Shown: piece after piece, positions 3,866-30,935 of the stretch
How positions within the stretch are numbered: position 1 is the first letter of the stretch
How the letters are laid out: each line of letters starts with the position of its first letter
IMG/VR virus record: IMGVR_UViG_3300006916_000197
Coordinates: 1 to 32,135 of that record
Source of the DNA: a virus
Strand: one strand, 5' to 3'
DNA: 32,135 nt
Notes under the pieces: model-generated
Told to the model about the DNA's origin: nothing
The model's database searches: none
What the model saw: only the letters and a program-made list of their open reading frames with translations
Made by a program: the position numbers and the translations under genes

Positions 3866-5650
3866 ATGGCTACTAGCAACGATCTCACTACATTAGATTT
3901 CGCTTCAATCAAAGAAAATTTAAAACTATATCTCAAGAGTCAAGATCTTTTTAGAGACTATGATTTTGAAGCATCTAATATTAATGTATTGTTAGATGTA
4001 CTCGCATATAATACCAGTTTAAATGGTTTCTATTTGAATATGGTTGCAAACGAGATGTTTCTTGATTCGGCGCTTTTAAGAGATTCTATTGTTTCGCACG
4101 CTAAAGAGCTAAACTATATTCCTCGTTCATTCAGATCTGCACAGGCGAGAGTGAATATAACGCTGAGAGATAATTCTGAAAATGCAACTGTATTAATTCC
4201 TCGCGGTACATCATTTACTGGTACTGCAGGCAGCCGTAATTTTACATTTACTACTAATCAAAATATTCAAGCATTTAGTACTGACACGCAAAACGTATTC
4301 CTTGCGACTGATGTAGTACTTTATGAAGGTGACTACGTACAAGATTCTTATGTTGCCGATACACAAAATCCAGTTAGATATTTGATTACTAATAAAACTA
4401 TCGATACGACGAGTTTACGTGTAACTGTAATCGAAGATAATGGCGCAACCGTTTTGAATTACGATATACGTGATTCATTATTTGGTCTTGGAGCTACTAG
4501 TCAAGTATTTTTCTTGCAAGCCGCAGAAAATGATTCTTACGAAATACTCTTTGGTGACGGGGTTATTGGTCGACCTCCAAAAAATAACTCTATTGTGTTG
4601 ATTGAATACAGAGCATGTAATGGTGAATTGCCAAATGGTATACGTACATTTGCCGCTGATGATGATATCACGACGGCGACTGTTACCGATATTCGTGTAT
4701 TATCTAGGGCGTCTGGCGGTTCTATTCCGGAATCAGTAGAATCAATTAAGTTTAACGCGCCGCGAGCATTTACAACACAAGAACGAGTTGTAACAGCACA
4801 AGATTACGCTACACTATTAAAAGCAAATTTCTCAGAGATCAATGATATCGCTGCGTATGGTGGCGAAGAATTTGATCCTCCACAATTTGGTAAAGTAATT
4901 ATTGCTGTCGACCTTAAAAATACAGATTCATTGCCCGATACGTATCGAGCCAAATATAGAGACTTTATTAAACCTCGCAGCCCCTTGTCAATTGATCCTG
5001 TGTTTATTGTTCCAAATTATATGTATTTGACAGTGAGTTCAAATGTGAAATACGATATTACACAAACAGCTTTGGGTGTTGATGATATGAAGAGTCTTGT
5101 AGTATCAGCCATTCAATCGTTTAACTTTAACAATCTCAATGGATTTAATAAAACATTACGTTATAGTAAGTTTATTGCTGCTATCGATGGGGCACAAGAT
5201 GCTATTATCAGTAACGATACAACAGTCGAAGCCACGCAGTTTATTTCTCTAAATGTAGCAGAAAGAACTAATTATACGATTGATTTTGGCATGCCATTAG
5301 TAAATGATATTGGTCAAAAACAAGGAGATCACTCTTCCAATCAAAGAGCTGTAGTGCGCACTGATACTTTCTTATATCAAGGCGAGCAGTGTTCTATTGA
5401 AGATAATGGATTGGGAGATTTGATTATAATTAAATCAACAACAAGTACGCATACACAATTGACGTCTATTGGTTCTGTTAATTACGAAACTGGTGTGTTA
5501 CGTATTAATAATTTCTTGCCTCAAGATCAAAAGCCTCAGATAAAAGTAACTGTTACACCACGAGAAAAAGATATTACAGCAAAAAATAGATCTATTCTCA
5601 GGGTACTCGATGCTGATATTAATGTAAGAATTGAACAGGTTAGAATTTAA
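3866..5650 (+). CDS. 6: Baseplate wedge subunit gp6
   Basis: A 594-residue protein (T4 gp6 is 660). The N-terminus (LDFASIKENLKLYLKSQ, then NINVLLDVLAYNTSLNGFY and ELNYIPRSFRSA) is the conserved start of gp6/baseplate_J-like proteins of T4-type phages. The segment ERVVTAQDYATLLKANF near residue 310 is another family landmark. In T4, gp6 forms the ring-like iris that links wedges around the hub and opens on contraction. The gene starts one base after gene 25 and its stop overlaps the start of the next gene (TAATG), giving the order 25-6-7-8. Confidence 0.92.
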   Translation: MATSNDLTTLDFASIKENLKLYLKSQDLFRDYDFEASNINVLLDVLAYNTSLNGFYLNMVANEMFLDSALLRDSIVSHAKELNYIPRSFRSAQARVNITLRDNSENATVLIPRGTSFTGTAGSRNFTFTTNQNIQAFSTDTQNVFLATDVVLYEGDYVQDSYVADTQNPVRYLITNKTIDTTSLRVTVIEDNGATVLNYDIRDSLFGLGATSQVFFLQAAENDSYEILFGDGVIGRPPKNNSIVLIEYRACNGELPNGIRTFAADDDITTATVTDIRVLSRASGGSIPESVESIKFNAPRAFTTQERVVTAQDYATLLKANFSEINDIAAYGGEEFDPPQFGKVIIAVDLKNTDSLPDTYRAKYRDFIKPRSPLSIDPVFIVPNYMYLTVSSNVKYDITQTALGVDDMKSLVVSAIQSFNFNNLNGFNKTLRYSKFIAAIDGAQDAIISNDTTVEATQFISLNVAERTNYTIDFGMPLVNDIGQKQGDHSSNQRAVVRTDTFLYQGEQCSIEDNGLGDLIIIKSTTSTHTQLTSIGSVNYETGVLRINNFLPQDQKPQIKVTVTPREKDITAKNRSILRVLDADINVRIEQVRI

Positions 5651-22500: not shown

Positions 22501-23446
22501 CAACGGCAGCTCAGATCTCGGCGCTTCTGGTTCAGACACAATCAGCATGATCGGTGTTGTCGATACAAACATCGTACCAACAGGATCTGTCGACCTAGGT
22601 ACATCAGCTGCGCCATGGACTGAATTGTGGGTAACGAATGCAGATGTACAGACTCTTCAAGTAGATCTCAATGCAACAATTACAGGCGAAGTCACTGCTA
22701 ATAACTTTGTTGGTGATGGCGCTCAACTGACTGCTATAAATGCATCAGAGTTAACGACTGGTACAGTGAATGATGCTCGACTGCCTGGAACAATTTCATC
22801 TGATATTACTGGTACGGCAGCACAATCAAATACTATTCAAGTGCATTCGAGCGGAGCAAGTGAAGCACATCCAGTAATATTTATCCCAGCTGGTTCAACT
22901 ACTAACTCATATCAAGATGCTCGATATGATACTACTTTTGTCTTCAACGCATCTAATAATACACTTACTGTTGATAATTTAATAGTTGATACAGCTGTAA
23001 CATTACCCTCTGATTTAACACTTGGAGGTACTACTCAATTTGAATCGATCGATGTAAGTGCAAACCTCAATGCTAACGTAGTCATTGGTTCTACGTTCGA
23101 GATTCCTGATGTTGGTTTCTCTGGTTCAAATACTTCTGTATCGACAACAGCAGCAACTGTAATTGATAGCTTCCCAATTGGCCAAACAAAAGGATTTAAG
23201 TATTTTGTACATGGTGATAGATCTGGTTCTTCTGACTCAGCATATGTGGTAGAGATTAATGTTGGTGTTACGGACAATGGTGATGTCTATTATACTCGAT
23301 ATGGTGAAATTGTAAATGATATGGCAGGTGTAAGCTTAGTCCCATCTTCAAGTGCAACGCATGTGAGTCTTATCGCAACATGTACTTCTGCATCAGGTTC
23401 AAACGTACATAACTTTACAATTCTGAAAATTGAGACTCGATCATAA
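19571..23446 (+). CDS. Long tail fibre-like protein with repeated shaft modules
   Basis: A 1291-residue protein. The N-terminal domain (FADWLNRTNDISLYLRGEFV, then MTANSLPGG) is the conserved attachment region of marine phage fibre genes. From about residue 155 to 970 come roughly seven modules of about 110-130 residues containing HW-(D/E)-x-(S/T)-x-N-x-L-NF-x-D, GDGDDLxIYHNGS, GTGNLYI, and LYHNNxxKxxTNxYGVEVxG. A transition region has LTAINASELTTGTVNDARLP, a frequent fibre link. The last 100 residues (FPIGQTKGFKYFVHGDRSGS onward) form a separate beta-rich tip domain seen at the end of related fibres. It probably makes a trimeric host-contact fibre. The RBS is GTAGGAACCA ending 4 bases before the ATG. 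Confidence 0.85.
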   Translation: MALLSDFPQLNPATDTFADWLNRTNDISLYLRGEFVTGTTQIMTANSLPGGSMTYGNATLFGQFTANTMVVINNGRNDGTDDNVFGNNAASNTDANVEFGGLRGGFWDNSQNTITADTLYIVSNTTFTPESTEVYVNSTYGLIVENTTELRYDVLYVGDGPAGSNTNAQLHWQSSNNQLNFNDDVRATFGGASGTEVFGGTGQYEMFYSAADNRMYSNTDIQDIRSTANLNLITDRYELRTETGGENMMTANLNGEVVLYWDNAARLTTNTYGVTVHGDAILEDDLVIFDGNKILMGGNTTYDGTQDLTTYKFQMFTDGSDAFIKADDRDLYLEVKEGFELTNIGRTTHYMTANATGENEVALFAAGTERLSTIDSASDADNSPDGVEIYGEANTTTLRVQSDANYDNTTLNSNSVHWDATNEIWNYRDNVKATWGDGDDLEIYYTGTRGNVNTDILDVRGSTNTNIFTDDFEMRSDTGNELLMTANVNNGVELYHNNIKKVSSNTYGVEVYGQVLADNGFVTYNNQPIEMGGANYAAAHNFTIVTDGTDTTITETSNDLSVRVEDNFRVTDDTGTTSLIVANTSGEVTLYHNNNQKMQTNAYGVEITGEANTVTLRVLTDANFDGSTGLDSNNISWDASANTLYLRDNTPIVLGDGNDLTIKHDGSHSLILEGGTGNLYIEGTNLVLRATDNSRYLEGIDGSHVIIYSPDDTPALLANNNQVHITDLANTNTLRVRSTSLFEDDIDIEGSTGNPTLTWDKSANTLNFDDNNYITMGTGGDFTMYHEGSNTYIREEGAGDLVLQANNMQLEDTSGLAYFCGTAGQGASMHFNGDQKLITRNDGIEANGIVDTDTLLVTSYANFEADVYFDGTTADAMHWESTNNLLNFNDGIKATFGTGDDLQIYHNGSHSYIDDAGTGNLYIRSNDLNIQKYTGEEMIRAIADGAVTLFHNNSAKLATTATGVNVTGTVVGTGLDINGSSDLGASGSDTISMIGVVDTNIVPTGSVDLGTSAAPWTELWVTNADVQTLQVDLNATITGEVTANNFVGDGAQLTAINASELTTGTVNDARLPGTISSDITGTAAQSNTIQVHSSGASEAHPVIFIPAGSTTNSYQDARYDTTFVFNASNNTLTVDNLIVDTAVTLPSDLTLGGTTQFESIDVSANLNANVVIGSTFEIPDVGFSGSNTSVSTTAATVIDSFPIGQTKGFKYFVHGDRSGSSDSAYVVEINVGVTDNGDVYYTRYGEIVNDMAGVSLVPSSSATHVSLIATCTSASGSNVHNFTILKIETRS
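20030..22485 (+). repeat. Shaft repeat region of the long fibre
   Basis: About seven degenerate units end in variants of (T/S)NxYGVEVxGxA and start with HWxxxxNxLNFxDxxxxTFG(T/D)GDDL. Two GTGNLYI copies lie near 21594 and 22319. The units are diverged at DNA level, indicating old expansion, not recent slippage. Confidence 0.7.
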
Positions 23447-23871
23447 TGGCTAACGCAATATACGATAAATATAAGGAAGCATTACTTAGCGGTGCTGCTA
23501 ATAGTTCGTTGACTACTGAAACGGTAAAGGTTTCTTTGATCGATGCTAACTCTATCGCTGAGCCGTTTATAGGAACAGATGAGTTTTATGATGATGTGAA
23601 TACAGCTAATTCAGTATTAGCAACAGTTGCATTATCAAACGTAACGGTCACTAATGGTGTGCTTGATGCTGATGATATTACATTTACTTCAGTGACTGAT
23701 ACGTCCACAGATGGTGATGCAGATGCACTTTTATTTTGGATAGATACTGGAGATACGGCAACAAGCAGACTTGTTGCATGGATGGATACTAATATAGACG
23801 GATTACCTATTACACCAGACGGCTCAGATATTGATGTTACATGGGCAGTCGACGGAATATTCAAATTATAA
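23446..23871 (+). CDS. Conserved small virion protein of marine phages (MANAIYDKYKEALLSG type)
   Basis: A 141-residue acidic protein. Its start, MANAIYDKYKEALLSGAANS followed by VKVSLIDANS, is a pattern I recognise from many marine phage fibre clusters, where it is annotated as a structural or hypothetical protein. The rest is beta-rich with a DTGDTATSRLVAWMD segment and a C-terminal ITPDGSDIDVTWAVDGIFKL. It starts in the stop codon of the long fibre (TAATG) and is followed 12 bases later by another fibre gene. Probably a fibre- or decoration-associated virion protein; the exact role is unknown. Confidence 0.75.
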   Translation: MANAIYDKYKEALLSGAANSSLTTETVKVSLIDANSIAEPFIGTDEFYDDVNTANSVLATVALSNVTVTNGVLDADDITFTSVTDTSTDGDADALLFWIDTGDTATSRLVAWMDTNIDGLPITPDGSDIDVTWAVDGIFKL

Positions 23872-23883
23872 AAAGAGATAGAG

Positions 23884-25065
23884 ATGGCAACTGCACAAAA
23901 ATTTGATACACTCGACGGTCTTGTAGTTACTGGTACATTAGAAACTGGAGGCTTGACTTCTTCCGGAAATCTTACTGTTGACACGAATACCCTTTTTGTA
24001 AATACCAACACAAATGGTGTTGCTATTGGTAATACTAGTACTTACGGCAAACTTTATATCTCACATACTGGCGCTAATCCAAGCCTCAATACAACATCAG
24101 CACAAAATGCTGCGCTTACAGTGCACGGTAGTTCATCAACTATTATGTCGGTGGGCGCAATGGCCACCGGGCCCTATGTCAATTACATTCAGGTAACTGC
24201 CCTAAGTCAAAATAATGCATATCCTTTAACTCTTCAGCCTGTCGGCGGAAATGTAGGTATTGGCACTAGTACTTTAAGTCCTGATGATCGATTGACAGTA
24301 AATGGTGGCGCCGGAACAGGTATTTCTATCTGGGATTCTGGAGCATCATCAGATGCATTGAGAATTGTCACTAATAGCTCTAGTTCATATATTAATACGA
24401 TTACTCACGGTAATACTGGATTAGAATTTAATAATAATAGTACGAGTCGCGGTTATAAATGGTCTGTAAATGGTACTTCTGCTGTAGAAATTGCTTCGAC
24501 ACGAGTCACTACATTCAGAGCTAATGTTTCTATGGCCGGAAACACGCTCGATATGGACTTAGGTAATATAGACGATGTAAATACCCTATATCTCGCCAGC
24601 TATGTGTATCATGATGGTAATACCACTTCATATTTTGGATTTCCTGCTAATAATCAGTGGAAATTAACGTTAGCTGGTTCAGACATTATTAATGCTACTT
24701 CTAGTACTACAACTGTTCAAACTACATTGACGGCTCCAAAAGTACAAGTTTCAGATTATTTTATCGAAACAAAAGTAGCAGCTCAATCAGGCACAGGTAC
24801 AAAAACCTTTGATTTAAATACGGGTTCATCATTTGAATATAATGGTACAGGTGGAAGCGTTACAGTGGCATTTAGCAATGTACCAACGTCAGACACAATT
24901 GCTTGGACACTTAAAACTACAAATAGCGGCAGCATTACTTGGCCAGCAGCGATTAGATGGGCTGAAGGTGTTGATCCACCTGAATCTGCTGGTCATGACA
25001 TATATAGTTTTATGAGTATTGCTGGTACAATTTATGGATCTCTAGCAATCAGAAATGCTTACTAA
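23884..25065 (+). CDS. Tail fibre/appendage protein
   Basis: A 393-residue protein with fibre composition. The N-terminus (LDGLVVTGTLETGGLTSSGN) has alternating hydrophobics like beta-helical shaft starts. The middle has repeated NxSSxINTITHGNTGLEFNN and TNGVAIGNTSTYGKLYI segments. The C-terminal 100 residues (KTFDLNTGSSFEYNGTGGSV, then VPTSDTIAWTLKTT and ITWPAAIRWAEGVDPPE) form a compact tip domain that I have seen at the end of other marine phage fibres. It sits between the MANAIYDKYK-type gene and the Tyr-rich gene, so these probably form one adhesin set. Receptor contact is likely but not shown. Confidence 0.75.
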   Translation: MATAQKFDTLDGLVVTGTLETGGLTSSGNLTVDTNTLFVNTNTNGVAIGNTSTYGKLYISHTGANPSLNTTSAQNAALTVHGSSSTIMSVGAMATGPYVNYIQVTALSQNNAYPLTLQPVGGNVGIGTSTLSPDDRLTVNGGAGTGISIWDSGASSDALRIVTNSSSSYINTITHGNTGLEFNNNSTSRGYKWSVNGTSAVEIASTRVTTFRANVSMAGNTLDMDLGNIDDVNTLYLASYVYHDGNTTSYFGFPANNQWKLTLAGSDIINATSSTTTVQTTLTAPKVQVSDYFIETKVAAQSGTGTKTFDLNTGSSFEYNGTGGSVTVAFSNVPTSDTIAWTLKTTNSGSITWPAAIRWAEGVDPPESAGHDIYSFMSIAGTIYGSLAIRNAY

Positions 25066-25075
25066 GAGGTAAAAA

Positions 25076-26761
25076 ATGGCTGGTGCTGGTGGAAAAGGTT
25101 TTTTTGATCGAACATGGGCAGATACTTTTAGTGAATCTCGAGACGTTTCTAATCGTACTACACCGATCAATTTACCCTATGGAAGACAAGTATTAGAAAT
25201 AGAAGGTCGTGGCGGTGTAGGAACTAAAGCGTATGTAAGACCTGCGTATTCAGATGGCGCAGATTATCCTTTGGTATATTCTGTAGAACCAGCTTATCAG
25301 ACTACCACTGCTGCATACTCTGTCATCACCTATTATCCTACACGATATTATAACTCGCATCCGCCTTCACCTCAACAAGCTACAGGCGGTTATAGTGTCT
25401 CAGCAGCTTATCCTAGTAATTATACTACACCGACCGGCCCGAATGCTGCCTATAGTGTATCAGTAAATTATCCGAACACTTACGCAACACAACCAGCATT
25501 CTATTCTCAAACATTTCAGCCTTCTACATATTATTTAGAAGGTGCTTCTGAATTTTCGGCATATATTTTTGAAGCTGCGTACACAGAACCAGCATATGCG
25601 TTTTACGGCTTTCAGCCCACAACATATACGGTGTATCCCGCTTATGAGACGGCATACACTTATCCTAATTCTTATACTTCACAAGCTGCAGGAGCAAATT
25701 ATTACCAATATCCGACAAGTTATACACAAGAACCGGCTTCAGAATTTTCGTATACACAACCAAGTACATATACTAGCTCGCTCGTAACTGATGGAACAAC
25801 TTATACCGTTATAGTATATGGCAGTAAAGGTGGTTATAGAACAAGAAATAATTGGACAACAGCATATAGTTCAGCCGGAGGCGGAACAACTTATGCGGAT
25901 CAGCCGGCAACATGGACTTCAGCCGCGGGTGCTTATAGCGCAGCGCCGTATCCGACCAATTGGACTGTTAATTACGGCGCTACAGTTTATGCAGACAATC
26001 CAGCAACATGGTATAAAGAACCATCAAATACGTATTTGCAGGCATCGTATCCTTCGCGAAATTTTCCCAGTTCATATTACGTTTCATATTATAATCAGCC
26101 TTCTACATATTATTTGGAACCGGCCAGCACCACGTATGTTGCTCATCCATCGTCAACATACTTACAACAAGCTGCGTATACTGGATATACAACTTATCCG
26201 TCTCGATTCCAAACTCAGGGTGCTTACACATTATATACTCATTATCCCACACGATATTATCAAGCGCATCCGCCTTCACCTGGTTTCCCCAGTGGTGGTT
26301 ATGCTGTGTCTACTCAATATCCTACGAATGTTCAGTATTATCCAGCAAGATATACAACAAGTGGTGGATACACATTGCAAACAAACTATCCCTCTGTATA
26401 TACAGCTGGTGTTGATGGTGAAGATACATCTGTTTCAATATCGGCAGCAGACGGCACATCATATGCATTCGTTGCTCCGGGCGCGCCAGCACCAGCTGGC
26501 TCGGGTTATTCTTTAGCACATGTATATAATTTCAAATATGGAGCTCAAGCTGGATATTATATACAGTTTGTCACGGTGCCCGGTCAATACACTACTCCGT
26601 CTGTTCCTAATGCCGTATATGCTACCTTACATGCTCCGCAATTGACCGGTGTTTATCAATCATCTGTGAATGCATATGTAGGTTGGTCTAGAAATAACTC
26701 ATTAGCCTCAGAAAAGGGCTATATAAATATCAGATACGATGGAGATCCTGATACTGTTTAA
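25076..26761 (+). CDS. Tyr/Pro-repeat virion adhesin-like protein
   Basis: A 561-residue protein in which about 84 residues (roughly 15%, hand count) are tyrosine. The N-terminus (TTPINLPYGRQVLEIEGRGG) and the very end (EKGYINIRYDGD) resemble the two ends of glycine-rich phage tip domains. Between them, about residues 62-446, lie repeats built on YP(S/T/N)xY followed by 6-10 spacer residues and AY. A Gly-rich break near residues 243-285 (IVYGSKGGYRTRNNWTTAYS) divides two halves. The copies YYPTRYYNSHPPSP and HYPTRYYQAHPPSP show an internal duplication. The RBS GAGGT is well placed (25066-25070). I know no family with this repeat; an adhesive or fibre-tip role is inference. The following gene is a putative hydroxylase. 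Confidence 0.8.
   Translation: MAGAGGKGFFDRTWADTFSESRDVSNRTTPINLPYGRQVLEIEGRGGVGTKAYVRPAYSDGADYPLVYSVEPAYQTTTAAYSVITYYPTRYYNSHPPSPQQATGGYSVSAAYPSNYTTPTGPNAAYSVSVNYPNTYATQPAFYSQTFQPSTYYLEGASEFSAYIFEAAYTEPAYAFYGFQPTTYTVYPAYETAYTYPNSYTSQAAGANYYQYPTSYTQEPASEFSYTQPSTYTSSLVTDGTTYTVIVYGSKGGYRTRNNWTTAYSSAGGGTTYADQPATWTSAAGAYSAAPYPTNWTVNYGATVYADNPATWYKEPSNTYLQASYPSRNFPSSYYVSYYNQPSTYYLEPASTTYVAHPSSTYLQQAAYTGYTTYPSRFQTQGAYTLYTHYPTRYYQAHPPSPGFPSGGYAVSTQYPTNVQYYPARYTTSGGYTLQTNYPSVYTAGVDGEDTSVSISAADGTSYAFVAPGAPAPAGSGYSLAHVYNFKYGAQAGYYIQFVTVPGQYTTPSVPNAVYATLHAPQLTGVYQSSVNAYVGWSRNNSLASEKGYINIRYDGDPDTV
25260..26412 (+). repeat. Tyr-Pro repeat array
   Basis: About twenty degenerate units of 15-22 residues contain YP(S/T/N)x(Y/F/W) or QPSTYY/QPATW cores. 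Two 70-base blocks (25331-25401 and 26241-26311) and two identical 20-mers (25517-25536 and 26096-26115) show internal duplication. Length varies between units, so this is not simple microsatellite DNA. Confidence 0.75.
26722..26729 (+). promoter_or_regulatory. T4-type late promoter TATAAATA before the oxygenase gene
   Basis: An exact TATAAATA lies in the last codons of the Tyr-rich gene, 31 bases before the first ATG of the oxygenase frame and 49 before the preferred ATG at 26779. T4 late transcription starts just downstream of this motif. The spacing matches the second well-placed site at 30923. Confidence 0.55.
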
Positions 26762-26778
26762 TGCGAGGTGTATACATT

Positions 26779-27408
26779 ATGTTTCCAATCAATCAACCCT
26801 TAGTTCCCCAATATCTTCTTCCGCATTTTGGTGTAATGAAAGATGTATTCGTTGAGGAAGAAATACAAAGAATACAGTTTTTCGAAAAAATATTAGATTT
26901 TAAACCAGGTGAGACAGTAGGCCAGATGATGGGTGAGGATCAATCTGAAGATCGCATTGCTCGAAAAGTTAAAAAGGCTTTAATGCCGATTGATCAAAAT
27001 ACTCAATGGTTATGGGATAAAGTTTCTCATATTACTGGAAAAGCTAATTACGATCTTTTTCTTTACGACATCACGAGTTTAGAAAACCTTGAATATCTAA
27101 TATATACAAATGATGACGAAGGCCCTGATTTTTATACAACACATCGTGACGTATTGACGAGAGGTCATAACAGATATGACAGAAAAATATCTGGAATTAT
27201 TATGCTCTCCAATCGTGATGAATATAAAGGTGGAGAAATTTTAATTGACCTCGCGGGTAATCACGATAAAACCAAATGGCAGAAAGTAGAAATGAATAGA
27301 GGTGACGTATGTTTCTTCGATTCAATGTTTCTGCATAGTGTTGAACCTGTGACAGAGGGAAAAAGACAAGTTTTAGTTTTTTGGGCCCACGGAAAAAATA
27401 AACTTTAA
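26779..27408 (+). CDS. 2OG-Fe(II) oxygenase, prolyl-hydroxylase (PKHD)-like
   Basis: A 209-residue protein from the ATG at 26779. That start has GAGG (26765-26768) at good spacing; the ATG at 26761, overlapping the previous stop, is the alternative and adds six residues. The iron-binding triad is visible as H122-R-D124 (THRDVLTRGHN) and H186 (FLHSVEPV), with R196 (EGKRQVLVFW) to bind 2-oxoglutarate. KISGIIMLSNRDEYKGGEIL and RGDVCFFDS are the usual strands of the double-stranded beta-helix. The length is normal for PKHD-type phage oxygenases. Substrate is unknown. The adjacent Tyr/Pro-repeat protein is the obvious candidate for prolyl or tyrosyl hydroxylation, but this is inference. Confidence 0.85.
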   Translation: MFPINQPLVPQYLLPHFGVMKDVFVEEEIQRIQFFEKILDFKPGETVGQMMGEDQSEDRIARKVKKALMPIDQNTQWLWDKVSHITGKANYDLFLYDITSLENLEYLIYTNDDEGPDFYTTHRDVLTRGHNRYDRKISGIIMLSNRDEYKGGEILIDLAGNHDKTKWQKVEMNRGDVCFFDSMFLHSVEPVTEGKRQVLVFWAHGKNKL

Positions 27409-27689: not shown

Positions 27690-28016
27690 ATGTCCGAAGA
27701 AGTCGAAAAGTCTGGATTTCATCCAGCAGATACTAATGGTGATGGAAAGGTCAGTGCTGAAGAGCATGCGATGTATATGGAGTTTAAGAGAAAGGAACTA
27801 GAAGATGCCGATGCAATGCGAGACGCACAACGAAATATGGCATGGTTCTCTCTTGCTGGTATGTTATTCTATCCCGCCATGGTTGTTGCTACTGATATTG
27901 CTGGTTTAGAAAAAGCATCGAACATTTTAGGTGATATGGCGCCGACCTATTTTGTTGCAGTCGCTGGCTTAGTTGCAGCATTCTTTGGTGCCCAAGCATG
28001 GAGTAAAGGTAAGTAA
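27690..28016 (+). CDS. EF-hand, two-TM membrane protein, holin candidate
   Basis: A 108-residue protein with a strong RBS (AGGAG, 27680-27684). Residues 14-25 (DTNGDGKVSAEE) form a canonical 12-position EF-hand loop with D14, N16, D18, S22 and E25 as calcium ligands. Residues 26-50 are a charged helix (MYMEFKRKELEDADAMRDAQ). Two hydrophobic segments follow, about 50-71 (MAWFSLAGMLFYPAMVV) and 83-104 (TYFVAVAGLVAAFFGAQAW), and a basic end (SKGK). Size, two TM segments and position directly before a spanin pair fit a holin. The calcium-binding domain would be on the N-terminal side of TM1. No endolysin gene is in the window. Function is inference. Confidence 0.7.
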   Translation: MSEEVEKSGFHPADTNGDGKVSAEEHAMYMEFKRKELEDADAMRDAQRNMAWFSLAGMLFYPAMVVATDIAGLEKASNILGDMAPTYFVAVAGLVAAFFGAQAWSKGK

Positions 28017-28017
28017 T

Positions 28018-28413
28018 ATGCCGTATTTGATTTTAATGTTTTTGTTATCCGGCATGGTAGGAGGCGCGTGGTTCTATTACACTGATACACAAGAGCGTCT
28101 CGCTACCCTTCGTGATAACAACGCAAAGTTGATGATGGTTGCTGAGACTAATCAAGAAACCATTAATAATTTACAAGCCGATTATAAACTCGCACAAGAG
28201 AATATGCTCGCGCTGCAAGAAAGGGCAAAAGAAGCAGAGAAGTATCAAGACGAGTTAGCTGCAAAGCTACGACGACATGATCTCACACGACTCACCCTAC
28301 AGAAACCTGGACTAATTGAAAAGAGAGTAAACAATGCTACGGACAAGATTTTCTCAGAGCTCGAAATCGATTCTGGCGCTGAGCCTCCTGTTCCCGCTGA
28401 TCAGCCTGAATAG
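28018..28413 (+). CDS. Inner-membrane spanin (Rz-like)
   Basis: A 131-residue protein; I start at the ATG 28018, one base after the holin candidate's stop, because it opens directly with a TM anchor. Residues 2-20 (PYLILMFLLSGMVGGAWFY) are an N-terminal membrane anchor. About residues 22-95 form a long charged coiled coil (NNAKLMMVAETNQETINNLQ, then ALQERAKEAEKYQDELAAKL). The end is acidic and Pro-rich (SGAEPPVPADQPE). This is the i-spanin architecture: an inner-membrane anchor with a periplasmic coiled coil that binds an outer-membrane o-spanin. The o-spanin frame starts inside this gene, which supports the call. Confidence 0.75.
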   Translation: MPYLILMFLLSGMVGGAWFYYTDTQERLATLRDNNAKLMMVAETNQETINNLQADYKLAQENMLALQERAKEAEKYQDELAAKLRRHDLTRLTLQKPGLIEKRVNNATDKIFSELEIDSGAEPPVPADQPE

Positions 28414-28792
28414 TGGCTGTGCAAGCGTAGAACCAACTGTCGTAGTCAAGACCGACTACGTAGTCAAGGATATTCCTATCCAACCCCGGCCCAAACCTAT
28501 GAATCTGCATAGGGTAAAGTTTTATGCTGTGACGCCTGAAAACATGGAAGAGTTTCTCGTAAGGTTCGAAGAAGAGAGTGGTACTACTGTATTCTTTGCG
28601 ATGAGTGTTCCTGACTATGAGAACATGAGCCTGAATGTTGCTGAATTGCGTCGATATATAAACCAGCAGAAAGCTCTTATTGTATATTATGAGGAGTCTA
28701 TTGAGACGATGATCAAAGAAACTCCCGAAGATACCGAAGAAGTCGTACAAGAAGGAACAGATTCTGTATTTGATTTGATTAAATTTGACTGA
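28334..28792 (+). CDS. Outer-membrane spanin lipoprotein (Rz1-like), partly embedded
   Basis: A 152-residue protein in a different frame that overlaps the i-spanin by 80 bases. Residues 1-28 form a lipoprotein signal: basic start (RTR), hydrophobic core ILALSLLFPLISL, then NSGC with C29 as the lipidated residue. The -3 residue is Asn, a less usual lipobox. After C29 comes a Val/Pro-rich stretch (IPIQPRPKPM), as in Rz1 proteins. The mature part is longer than lambda Rz1 (60 residues in all) and ends in a helical, acidic segment. Overlapping frames and lipobox next to a coiled-coil i-spanin fit a two-component spanin that fuses the inner and outer membranes at lysis. Confidence 0.75.
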   Translation: MLRTRFSQSSKSILALSLLFPLISLNSGCASVEPTVVVKTDYVVKDIPIQPRPKPMNLHRVKFYAVTPENMEEFLVRFEEESGTTVFFAMSVPDYENMSLNVAELRRYINQQKALIVYYEESIETMIKETPEDTEEVVQEGTDSVFDLIKFD

Positions 28793-28802
28793 GAATTAAT
28801 AA

Positions 28803-29534
28803 ATGAATGAAGTGAATGTCGACTTTGTTGATATAACAAAAAAAATCTATAGCCTACATCCAATACAAAAAGCAGTATCTGTAGAAGGCGCCCATAAAAA
28901 AATTCAATTAGAGAAACACGGTCGCGAAACCTTTGTCGACTGTCCTGGCATTTTTGATTATAAAAGCCAAGGATGGATTATGACGGCATGGGATGAATTT
29001 ACTGTGTATGCATCTGAAGGTGCAACGATGGCATATGCTGGTAGTGATGGTAGGCCGACAGATTTTCCTACTCCAAAGCCGATACATAAAACAAATCCCA
29101 ATCCTATGAGTGCAGACATTACTGACGGCATTCCAAATGATGCTACAGAGTGTCCAGTAAAAAGATTACAACCTCTTCATTTTTGCAGTCCGTGGAGAGT
29201 CCAACCTCAAAACGATATTTCTCTTTTATTAATGCCTCCATTTTACCATAGCCAATATATCATGGAAAATTTTATGATATATCCTGGTATAGTTGATTAT
29301 ACCCAAAAATTTCATACTATCAATGTTATCATGTCTCCCAAGAAAGAGGGTACGTTTGTTATTAAAGCTGGCACACCTTTGCTACATATGATACCTATTC
29401 AAAAGGGCACATATAACTTAAAATACGGACCTCAGACAAAAGAAGATATAGGTGTTGTCGCGTCCGCGAAACAATTTTATCGTAGATATATTATGAAAAG
29501 ATCGAAATACACACTGGAGAAATTTGATGATTGA
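28803..29534 (+). CDS. Phage protein of unknown function, DUF6065-like pattern
   Basis: A 243-residue protein without signal or TM. Visible landmarks are VDCPGIFDYKSQGWIMTAWD near residue 45, PLHFCSPWRVQPQNDISLLL near 121, and FVIKAGTPLLHMIPIQKGTY near 182. The order 'substrate-free beta strands, W-x-I-x-P-x-G/D-x-S, then GxPLxxMIP' recalls DUF6065-like proteins found in phages next to oxygenase genes; I am not sure of the family. It lies between the spanin pair and a JmjC/cupin-like gene, and its stop overlaps the next ATG by eight bases. Possible link to the modification genes around it is context only. Confidence 0.6.
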   Translation: MNEVNVDFVDITKKIYSLHPIQKAVSVEGAHKKIQLEKHGRETFVDCPGIFDYKSQGWIMTAWDEFTVYASEGATMAYAGSDGRPTDFPTPKPIHKTNPNPMSADITDGIPNDATECPVKRLQPLHFCSPWRVQPQNDISLLLMPPFYHSQYIMENFMIYPGIVDYTQKFHTINVIMSPKKEGTFVIKAGTPLLHMIPIQKGTYNLKYGPQTKEDIGVVASAKQFYRRYIMKRSKYTLEKFDD

Positions 29535-30294
29535 TTTAGATAAATTGTATAAGTTAAGAAAAACCATACATTTTAACGACAATGTGTATCATTCTGAAAA
29601 ACTTCTAATAGAAAAAATTTGTGATTGGGATGACTTCAGAGATTGTACTATAGAAAATAATACTTATAATTGCTCTATTTTAAATAAAACTGATAGCATT
29701 TATGAACCTGTGAGTACGATGGAAGTCAGAACTAAGAATAATACAAAAGAAAAACAAATATATCATACGACTGGGGACATTAATGGCACACCTAGTTGGG
29801 ATGCTAGAGATTATTTCGAAAACGGCCACATGGTTGTTATAAAAAATTTCGAAAGAAAAAATGAAAATGTCAACAATCTTATAAAACAATTGTTGTATGT
29901 ATTTTATTTAAATATCGAAGATCATGGAGTTTGGCCAGCAATTATTAATCAATATTCAGGCCACGCGCATTTGTATGGTGGTCTAGAAAATAGTAATTCT
30001 TTTGAACCGCATGCCGACCCTTATTGCAATTTTATATTTCAAATTGAAGGAACAACAGAAGTAACTATCTACAAAAATAGAGCGTGCTCATTAATGGATC
30101 ATCAACTGCAGATTTCTGCTACAGAGAACCAAAGAAAAGAAACTATAGGTAATCTAGAAGTGCAAGAAATAATTACTATGAACGAAGGTGATTGTTTGTA
30201 CATACCAAATCGTCAATTTAATTATTTTAAATCCAAAACAAATAGATTGTCACTCAGTATTCCACTCATTATGAAAGGTCCAATGGCTTACTGA
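29527..30294 (+). CDS. JmjC/cupin-like protein, possible 2OG oxygenase with altered triad
   Basis: A 255-residue protein; ATG at 29527 is chosen over the TTG three bases earlier. Residues 96-115 (GHMVVIKNFERKNENVNNLI) look like the substrate-facing lead-in of JmjC/cupin_4 proteins. The core has FEPHADPYCNFIFQIEGTTE with H162 and D164 as two metal ligands, then EVTIYKNR, and EGDCLYIPNRQFNYFKSK. In the family the last segment normally reads GDxLYIPxxxxH. Here the His position holds a polar or aromatic residue (N/Y), so iron binding may be changed or lost. It overlaps both neighbours (8 bases upstream, 1 base downstream). A hydroxylase role is plausible but uncertain. Confidence 0.65.
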   Translation: MIDLDKLYKLRKTIHFNDNVYHSEKLLIEKICDWDDFRDCTIENNTYNCSILNKTDSIYEPVSTMEVRTKNNTKEKQIYHTTGDINGTPSWDARDYFENGHMVVIKNFERKNENVNNLIKQLLYVFYLNIEDHGVWPAIINQYSGHAHLYGGLENSNSFEPHADPYCNFIFQIEGTTEVTIYKNRACSLMDHQLQISATENQRKETIGNLEVQEIITMNEGDCLYIPNRQFNYFKSKTNRLSLSIPLIMKGPMAY

Positions 30295-30935
30295 TGGATA
30301 TGAATATACAACGAAAAGATATTTTTGTTGAAAGTATCTTTGACGTAGAAGTTCCCGATGTAGATACTGATGGAATTTATGCCTTTTTTATGGAGGCAAA
30401 AAAAAATCACAGTGGTATTTCAAGATCAAATTACGGTGGCTGGCAATTTGATATGAAAACTGATGTTTGTCCAGCATACGATGATCTGCTTCAAAAATTA
30501 GATATGGCTGCAAATCATATCATCAGAAATGTTTTTAAAATGGATCTAGAAGTATTTGTATGTAATTCATGGTTGAATCATAGTTTAAAAGGCGGAATGA
30601 ATTCAATACATACTCATCCTGGAGCTCTTCTTTCCGGAGCATTTTATATCAAAACTAGTGACAATACTGGAGACATTAATTTTGTCAGGGAAAGTGCACA
30701 CGCCATTGAAAATACTTTACATTATTTAAATGCAGATTATATAAGAAAAAAGAGAGATAGATTGTGGATGACAAATCACTCGCGGCCGCCTAAACAAAAT
30801 CATGCTTATATGTTTTCTCCGTGGTTGATGCATGAGGTAATGGAAAACACAACAAACGATGATCGTTTAGTAGCAGGATTTAATGTTAGGCCAGTTTTTC
30901 CGGAAGATAGGGTCGCGGCCGTTATAAATAAATAG
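30294..30935 (+). CDS. Putative 2OG-Fe(II) oxygenase, TIGR02466-like
   Basis: A 213-residue protein with the pattern of the TIGR02466 family: SNYGGWQFDMKTD near residue 44, FVCNSWLNHSLKGGMNSIHT leading to H106-T-H108-PGALLSGAFYI, GDINFVRES, and MFSPWLMHEVMENTTNDDR with H180 and R191 as distal ligand and 2-oxoglutarate-binding residue, then GFNV. Members occur widely in marine phages; their substrates are not known to me. It starts in the stop codon of the JmjC-like gene (TGATG), so the two should be made together. A late promoter lies over its last codons, driving the next gene. Confidence 0.75.
   Translation: MDMNIQRKDIFVESIFDVEVPDVDTDGIYAFFMEAKKNHSGISRSNYGGWQFDMKTDVCPAYDDLLQKLDMAANHIIRNVFKMDLEVFVCNSWLNHSLKGGMNSIHTHPGALLSGAFYIKTSDNTGDINFVRESAHAIENTLHYLNADYIRKKRDRLWMTNHSRPPKQNHAYMFSPWLMHEVMENTTNDDRLVAGFNVRPVFPEDRVAAVINK
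30923..30930 (+). promoter_or_regulatory. T4-type late promoter TATAAATA before the second structural block
   Basis: An exact TATAAATA overlaps the last codons of the oxygenase gene and ends 37 bases before the ATG at 30968. The intergenic leader contains the RBS GTAGGAACCA (30953-30962), the same ten bases that precede the long fibre gene (19557-19566). Position at the head of a new gene block makes this the best-placed promoter in the window. Confidence 0.6.

Follow-up and report, generated by a model that had tools for sequence, protein, structure and literature searches.

A PKHD-type oxygenase gene beside a putative Tyr/Pro-repeat tail adhesin gene in a marine T4-like phage: a candidate system for adhesin hydroxylation

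A marine T4-like phage carries, within its tail-gene cluster, a gene encoding a Tyr/Pro-repeat protein followed by a gene encoding a 2OG–Fe(II) oxygenase of the PKHD/PHD prolyl hydroxylase type. The conservation of this pair among relatives, together with its fate in a lineage whose enzyme has lost its active site, suggests, without proving it, that the tail adhesin undergoes chemical modification by an enzyme of the phage itself. With moderate confidence, we propose that the oxygenase hydroxylates prolines in the repeats of the neighbouring tail-tip adhesin late in infection. As regards the substrate, the prolines hit and the purpose of the hydroxyl group, we infer the following sequence of events. 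The oxygenase would be made late, alongside the virion proteins, and would hydroxylate the repeat prolines co- or post-translationally, before or during tail-fibre assembly. The target prolines most likely lie outside the YP dipeptide (QP-A/S-Y type), and their hydroxylation may stiffen or stabilize polyproline-like strands or, otherwise, change the contacts with the receptor.

The locus, its two proteins and the late-promoter motif

The window, i.e., the whole stretch of DNA analysed, is the 32,135-nt viral record IMGVR_UViG_3300006916_000197, a fragment (~32 kb) of a T4-like phage (Table 1). The gp6 baseplate-wedge protein (3866–5650) finds its best match in alphaproteobacterial T4-like phages (38.6% to Sinorhizobium phiN3) and is followed downstream by large tail proteins, a 141-aa minor-tail-like protein, a 393-aa tail-fibre protein, the 561-aa Tyr/Pro-repeat protein and the oxygenase. 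The last two genes directly adjoin each other, as the preliminary description of this DNA had reported. Further downstream, an Rz-like spanin gene (28334–28792) overlaps the end of a small membrane-protein ORF (27973–28413), which is a typical nested lysis arrangement.

Table 1. Features of the tail cluster around the adhesin–oxygenase pair (positions in the window; oxygenase residues in the 215-aa numbering)
Feature	Position	Strand	Remarks
Large tail-fibre protein, 1291 aa	19571..23446	+	
Minor-tail-like protein	23446..23871	+	phrog_644; synteny kept in relatives
Tail-fibre protein	23884..25065	+	phrog_9017; directly 5' of the adhesin gene; syntenic in L007, L011, L014, L093 and L096
Putative Tyr/Pro-repeat tail adhesin, 561 aa	25076..26761	+	
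TATAAATA, T4-type late-promoter motif	26722..26729	+	Inside the final codons of the adhesin gene
Probable Shine–Dalgarno sequence, gaggtg	26764..26769	+	Predicted from sequence for the start at 26779
PKHD/prolyl-hydroxylase-type 2OG–Fe(II) oxygenase	26779..27408	+	ORF called 26761–27408
Fe ligand H128	27142–27144		
Fe ligand D130	27148–27150		
Fe ligand H192	27334–27336		
2OG-binding R202	27364–27366		
phrog_7084 protein	28803..29534	+	Syntenic relatives in L007, L011, L014 and L096
JmjC_2/cupin-type oxygenase	29524..30294	+	In the tail cluster of the pair; distal Fe-ligand His is Asn
2OG-FeII_Oxy_5 oxygenase	30294..30935	+	In the tail cluster of the pair; ligand residues retained

The repeat ORF contains 15.0% Tyr, 8.7% Pro and 8% Gly, with a Tyr/Pro periodicity of 16 residues (lag 16 at 2.2 times the expected value). 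Its architecture comprises an N-terminal frame (MAGAGGKGFFDRTWADTF...INLPYGRQVLEIEGRGG), degenerate 16-residue repeats and a C-terminal frame (VYATLHAP...GYINIRYDG). Fourteen YP dipeptides were counted where 7.4 would be expected by shuffling (a count this high arose in 15 of 2000 shuffles), a number that the preliminary description had overstated as dozens, while xP[STA]x(Y/W/F/R) motifs occur 21 times against 6.5 expected, a count that none of 2000 shuffles reached. No match to the repeat protein was found in Pfam, PHROG or INPHARED, nor in GTDB genomes, the BLAST low-complexity filter possibly hiding distant matches in both INPHARED and GTDB, and its AlphaFold2 model was unusable (pLDDT 26.5). 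Presumably, this protein is a receptor-binding adhesin located at the tail tip.

The oxygenase matches PF13640 (3.5e-13, 50.8 bits for a cut-off of 27) and phrog_61 (1.3e-21). The intact HxD...H and Arg set previously ascribed to this PKHD-like enzyme is indeed complete (H128, D130, H192 and R202) and, moreover, these residues are invariant across 47 aligned oxygenases, L096 not counted, while a dN/dS of 0.055 between the enzymes of L011 and L013 indicates strong purifying selection on intact copies. Translation more likely starts at 26779 than at 26761, since the orthologue in L007 aligns from that Met, which is preceded by GAGG. The AlphaFold2 model of the oxygenase is good (pLDDT 88.2), its nearest folds being Sbal_3634 and PiuC (both PKHD), PHD2 and the Pseudomonas EF-Tu prolyl hydroxylase, and the 46 different PDB sequences hit by the 47-sequence profile (E up to 1e-3) are without exception PKHD enzymes or prolyl hydroxylases. 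Both lines place the protein closest to known prolyl hydroxylases, and the profile and the modelled fold fit a protein hydroxylase without fixing its substrate.

In each of the eight phages analysed, the motif TATAAATA stands 38–65 nt upstream of the oxygenase start, as in a T4-type late gene, while the adhesin gene has no such motif close upstream in seven of them. The earlier observation that the enzyme has its own motif in the 3' end of the repeat gene is thereby borne out, its position being conserved in 8/8 phages. In seven of them, the motif overlaps (F/Y)IN codons near the end of the adhesin, always via ATA and AAT codons, and the joint chance of those codon choices amounts to 0.08–0.22 per genome. 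In L007, the adhesin reads FVNV and the coding motif is gone, TATAAATA standing in the intergenic gap instead. Only this conserved position is informative; the frequency of the motif in the window was dropped as evidence, as it is not above chance (4 found against 5.2 expected). This predicted promoter, conserved before the oxygenase, supports the idea that the enzyme would be expressed late, together with virion proteins.

Relatives of the pair and a lineage with a broken enzyme

Single window proteins, used as queries against viral contigs, returned no match, and alignments were needed. A 160-kb contig (L007) carrying the same pair, with an oxygenase 56% identical to that of the window, was found via a neighbouring gene, and further contigs were obtained by one profile scan and two scans with the adhesin framework. 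In each of the ten contigs that make up the adhesin-framework family (the window, L007, L011, L012, L013, L014, L015, L093, L096 and L097), the gene immediately after the adhesin, on the same strand, is the oxygenase ORF. Thus, the search for co-occurrence and adjacency in related phages proposed in the preliminary description gave a strongly positive outcome in every family contig found. The oxygenases of the family form one clade (support 99/95) of six rows in the tree, where L012/L013 and L015 are represented by near relatives. The repeat unit turns over completely between relatives while high Tyr and Pro persist, the adhesin of L007 showing a regular 17-mer, QPAYSVTTNYPSRAVPD, and that of L014 an 18-residue period, QPYSYNQPYPFQAPGTKP. 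Furthermore, in L028/L029 a distant oxygenase (27% identity), placed outside the family clade, follows a Tyr/Pro-rich adhesin with a different, unrelated repeat. Since L028 lies outside that clade, a Tyr/Pro neighbour accompanies two separate branches of the oxygenase tree.

In the lineage formed by L096 and L097, which differ at 10 positions in 16 kb and were counted as one event, the HxD motif of the oxygenase ORF has become HRE, the distal His is replaced by Trp and the 2OG-binding Arg by Ala. Its branch length of 2.48, against 0.43–0.8 for the others, marks the L096 copy as fast-evolving. The adhesin of L096 (973 aa, of the KAAYNTSATTNYPARFN type) contains 1.0 non-YP Pro per 100 aa, against 5.2–10.0 in phages with an intact enzyme, whereas YP stays at 3.9 per 100 aa and QP is down to 1. 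The joint occurrence of a broken enzyme and the loss of non-YP Pro, albeit in one event, points to QP-type proline rather than YP as the target, and the simplest reading of this event is that their hydroxylation is the reason why non-YP prolines are retained. The loss of QP could, however, stem from tandem amplification of one mutated unit; the QP count in the window adhesin is 6, though its enzyme is intact, and the search for a further dead-enzyme lineage found none. The proposal that the phage hydroxylates its own adhesin therefore gains from the adjacency and from this co-evolution signal, but the signal falls on non-YP (QP-type) prolines instead of YP, and the hydroxylation itself is a prediction. 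The hydroxylation of Tyr to DOPA was also considered and dropped as lying outside the known chemistry of 2OG oxygenases, none of which is known to carry out this reaction.

It is unlikely that the oxygenase modifies some other tail or host protein, or a residue other than proline (Asn, Lys, Arg or Tyr), the Tyr/Pro gene being merely its neighbour. Residue specificity is not readable from the sequence, homologues occur in many contexts, e.g., adjoining neck genes and other oxygenases in the isolate HTVC008M, and three different oxygenases (PKHD, JmjC_2 and 2OG_Oxy_5) are found in the tail cluster of the window, all of which would agree with another substrate. However, a Tyr/Pro-rich neighbour recurs outside the main oxygenase clade, and it is specifically the non-YP prolines that vanish together with the active site.

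Regarding the companion oxygenases, the JmjC_2 ligands are kept in L007, L011 and L014 and lost in L096 (12988–13803), whose 2OG_Oxy_5 enzyme retains its ligands, unlike its PKHD-type and JmjC_2 oxygenases. Arg was rejected as a JmjC target, since Arg content does not track JmjC integrity: the JmjC proteins of the window and L096 lack ligands, and L014 has intact ligands but little Arg. In L014 (8017–12615), the genes encoding the adhesin, PKHD, phrog_7084-type/DUF6065-like, JmjC-like and 2OG_Oxy_5 proteins follow one another without interruption, and the ends of the last four overlap, which makes this possibly a complete modification operon. DUF6065-type proteins recur beside the pair (L007 7148–7861, L093 10270–10998, L096 11502–12212, L029 10558–11310, L046 and L082), as Pfam matches in L007, L029 and L096 and by resemblance in L093, L046 and L082; the open literature searched holds no mention of DUF6065.

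Many tail adhesins of phages depend on dedicated chaperones in their neighbourhood, and the oxygenase ORF of L096/L097 is still intact and in place although its Fe ligands and 2OG Arg are lost. The oxygenase-fold protein might accordingly act mainly as a folding or assembly partner of the repeat adhesin, with catalysis being secondary or dispensable. This is quite improbable, given that, L096 aside, the catalytic residues do not vary among the 47 aligned sequences, that the L096 copy evolves fast and that the composition of its adhesin has changed in the direction predicted for a hydroxylation target.

Oxygenases near Gly/Pro-rich adhesins in other phages

Neighbourhoods were counted for 51 oxygenase clusters (<80% identity), taking genes within four positions as near. 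A Tyr/Pro-rich ORF is present in five of these clusters, always at position -1, and a Gly/Pro-rich ORF lies within four genes in 27. Tyr/Pro- or Gly/Pro-rich genes account for 37 of 379 genes near oxygenases against 10 of 594 farther away (Fisher p 1.4e-8, the clusters not being fully independent), while the near-gene enrichment of Tyr/Pro ORFs alone is not significant (p 0.16). The first half of what the preliminary description had named as speaking against adhesin hydroxylation, namely a widespread oxygenase without any Tyr/Pro-repeat gene, is literally what was found, yet 27/51 clusters have a Gly/Pro-rich ORF. As many of these neighbours show a similar terminal arrangement, the idea is broadened rather than discarded.

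Many Gly-rich neighbours have a repetitive interior flanked by an N-terminal "P.G...V.G.G" strand and a C-terminal "G.v.I.W" strand. Direct homology between the Tyr/Pro frame and the Gly-rich frame gained no support from hhalign, where their comparison is not significant (probability 2.9% and 0.4%), and they are bridged only through L029, whose Tyr/Pro adhesin matches the Gly-rich frame HMM (E 1.5e-5). When ~1,900 ORFs were scanned with the YP frame HMM, the next-best matches came from L029 and, for the most part, Gly-rich adhesins, all of them weak (E 0.06 or weaker). It is likely, and not proven, that both types of adhesins share an architecture, judging from these sequence patterns. The Gly-rich adhesin of L067 gave no sequence match to solved structures in the PDB.

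Among isolates, cyanophage S-CAM9 (L101 1–5537) carries a collagen-like GPT-repeat tail fibre three genes before a PKHD-type oxygenase, the fibre, a hypothetical protein and a pair of 2OG oxygenases being encoded consecutively, and HTVC008M encodes a Gly-rich protein ~3 kb from its oxygenase array. L060, L077, L057, L088 and similar loci contain 2–4 consecutive oxygenase-like genes and then a Gly/Pro-rich adhesin rich in GNPGN. In S-SCSM1 (L103 4968–7385), a protein O-fucosyltransferase gene is located between two 2OG oxygenase genes, and hydroxylation followed by glycosylation is conceivable there; mass spectrometry of S-SCSM1 virions has been published (PMC9602691).

Overall, the pair seems to be one version of a broader "adhesin plus hydroxylase" arrangement in phages. 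More tentatively, and as a possibility that falls somewhat short of probable, marine and freshwater phages may carry adhesin-hydroxylation cassettes. These would consist of a fast-evolving Tyr/Pro or Gly/Pro adhesin and one to four dedicated 2OG oxygenases (PKHD, JmjC_2, 2OG_Oxy_5), often with a DUF6065 protein, which would modify the adhesin post-translationally. If so, such cassettes would explain many unassigned 2OG oxygenases of these phages and would give phages a novel means of adjusting host recognition or the stability of the adhesin.

For cyanophage relatives, AlkB-like repair next to UvsY/UvsX (PMC2984593) and modulation of 2OG levels (PMC3037559) have been proposed, and some homologues adjoin uvsW/uvsY. 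A role of the window enzyme in nucleic-acid repair or host 2-oxoglutarate/nitrogen metabolism is nevertheless very improbable, since its gene is part of a tail cluster and is preceded by a late-promoter motif, and the PDB matches of its profile include no AlkB, only PKHD enzymes and prolyl hydroxylases. Finally, an adjacency due only to inherited tail-gene order, without any functional link, is scarcely credible: the close family (L007, L011, L014, L093 and L096) shares synteny around the pair, where adjacency could be inherited, but the independent adjacency in L028/L029, the excess of repeat adhesins around oxygenases and the joint loss in L096 argue otherwise.

Comparison with known systems

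Precedents exist for viral P4H, for PKHD enzymes and for Gly-rich adhesins of phages. Of the solved structures, PKHD-type hydroxylases (PiuC and Sbal_3634/YbiX; PF13640), which possess the same HxD...H...R set, are nearest to the phage enzyme in sequence and rank among the nearest in fold. The phage gene stands behind a repeat adhesin gene in a tail cluster, whereas in an Acinetobacter contig it is a TonB receptor gene that precedes the YbiX-type gene. The record CAKLQF020000005.1 (L114, "Acinetobacter phage MD-2021a") contains the chromosomal genes clpP, tig, leuA and metX and looks like bacterial sequence filed as a phage. PHD2/EGLN1, the Pseudomonas EF-Tu prolyl hydroxylase and the Bacillus and algal P4H share the DSBH fold and match the sequence profile of the phage enzyme, although identity is 15–20% and the proposed substrate here is a phage repeat protein. 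PHD2 uses Arg as 2OG ligand, whereas collagen-type P4H uses Lys. The phage oxygenase resembles PHD2 in this respect, with Arg202 as the presumed ligand at the place of the Lys that binds the 2OG C5-carboxylate in collagen-type P4H.

In vitro, the P4H of chlorovirus PBCV-1 acts as a hydroxylase on peptides containing Pro (Eriksson 1999, as cited by PMC9301287 and PMC7019647). Unlike the phage enzyme, it belongs to a eukaryotic virus, and the literature consulted mentions no dedicated adhesin neighbour for it. Hydroxyproline was not detected in PBCV-1 virions although the virus encodes an active P4H (PMC7019647), which calls for caution on adhesin hydroxylation. On the adhesin side, the Gly-rich S16 gp38 (polyglycine sandwich; PMC6851490) shares with the window adhesin the presumed tail-tip position and the repetitive strands between terminal frames, and the PGII helices of the sandwich resemble polyproline II (PMC6851490). 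However, the window adhesin has Tyr/Pro instead of Gly repeats and, with 8% Gly, lacks the Gly-rich motifs that form a PGII lattice.

A dedicated enzyme–adhesin pair in phages was not reported in the open literature searched, with subscription papers and preprints outside its scope. The pair, the natural dead-enzyme lineage and the predicted target proline turn adhesin modification into a question open to direct mass spectrometry. If the proposal is correct, hydroxylation of receptor-binding or structural tail proteins is carried out by the phages themselves, and adhesin chemistry would be coupled to the host supply of oxygen, iron and 2-oxoglutarate. The window enzyme is a member of the PHROG 61 2OG–Fe(II) oxygenases of marine phages, which are structurally like human EGLN3 (PMC12774648) and were formerly left without an assigned function or treated as metabolic genes (PMC9602691); in contrast to this earlier view, the enzyme described here is tied to an adhesin gene.
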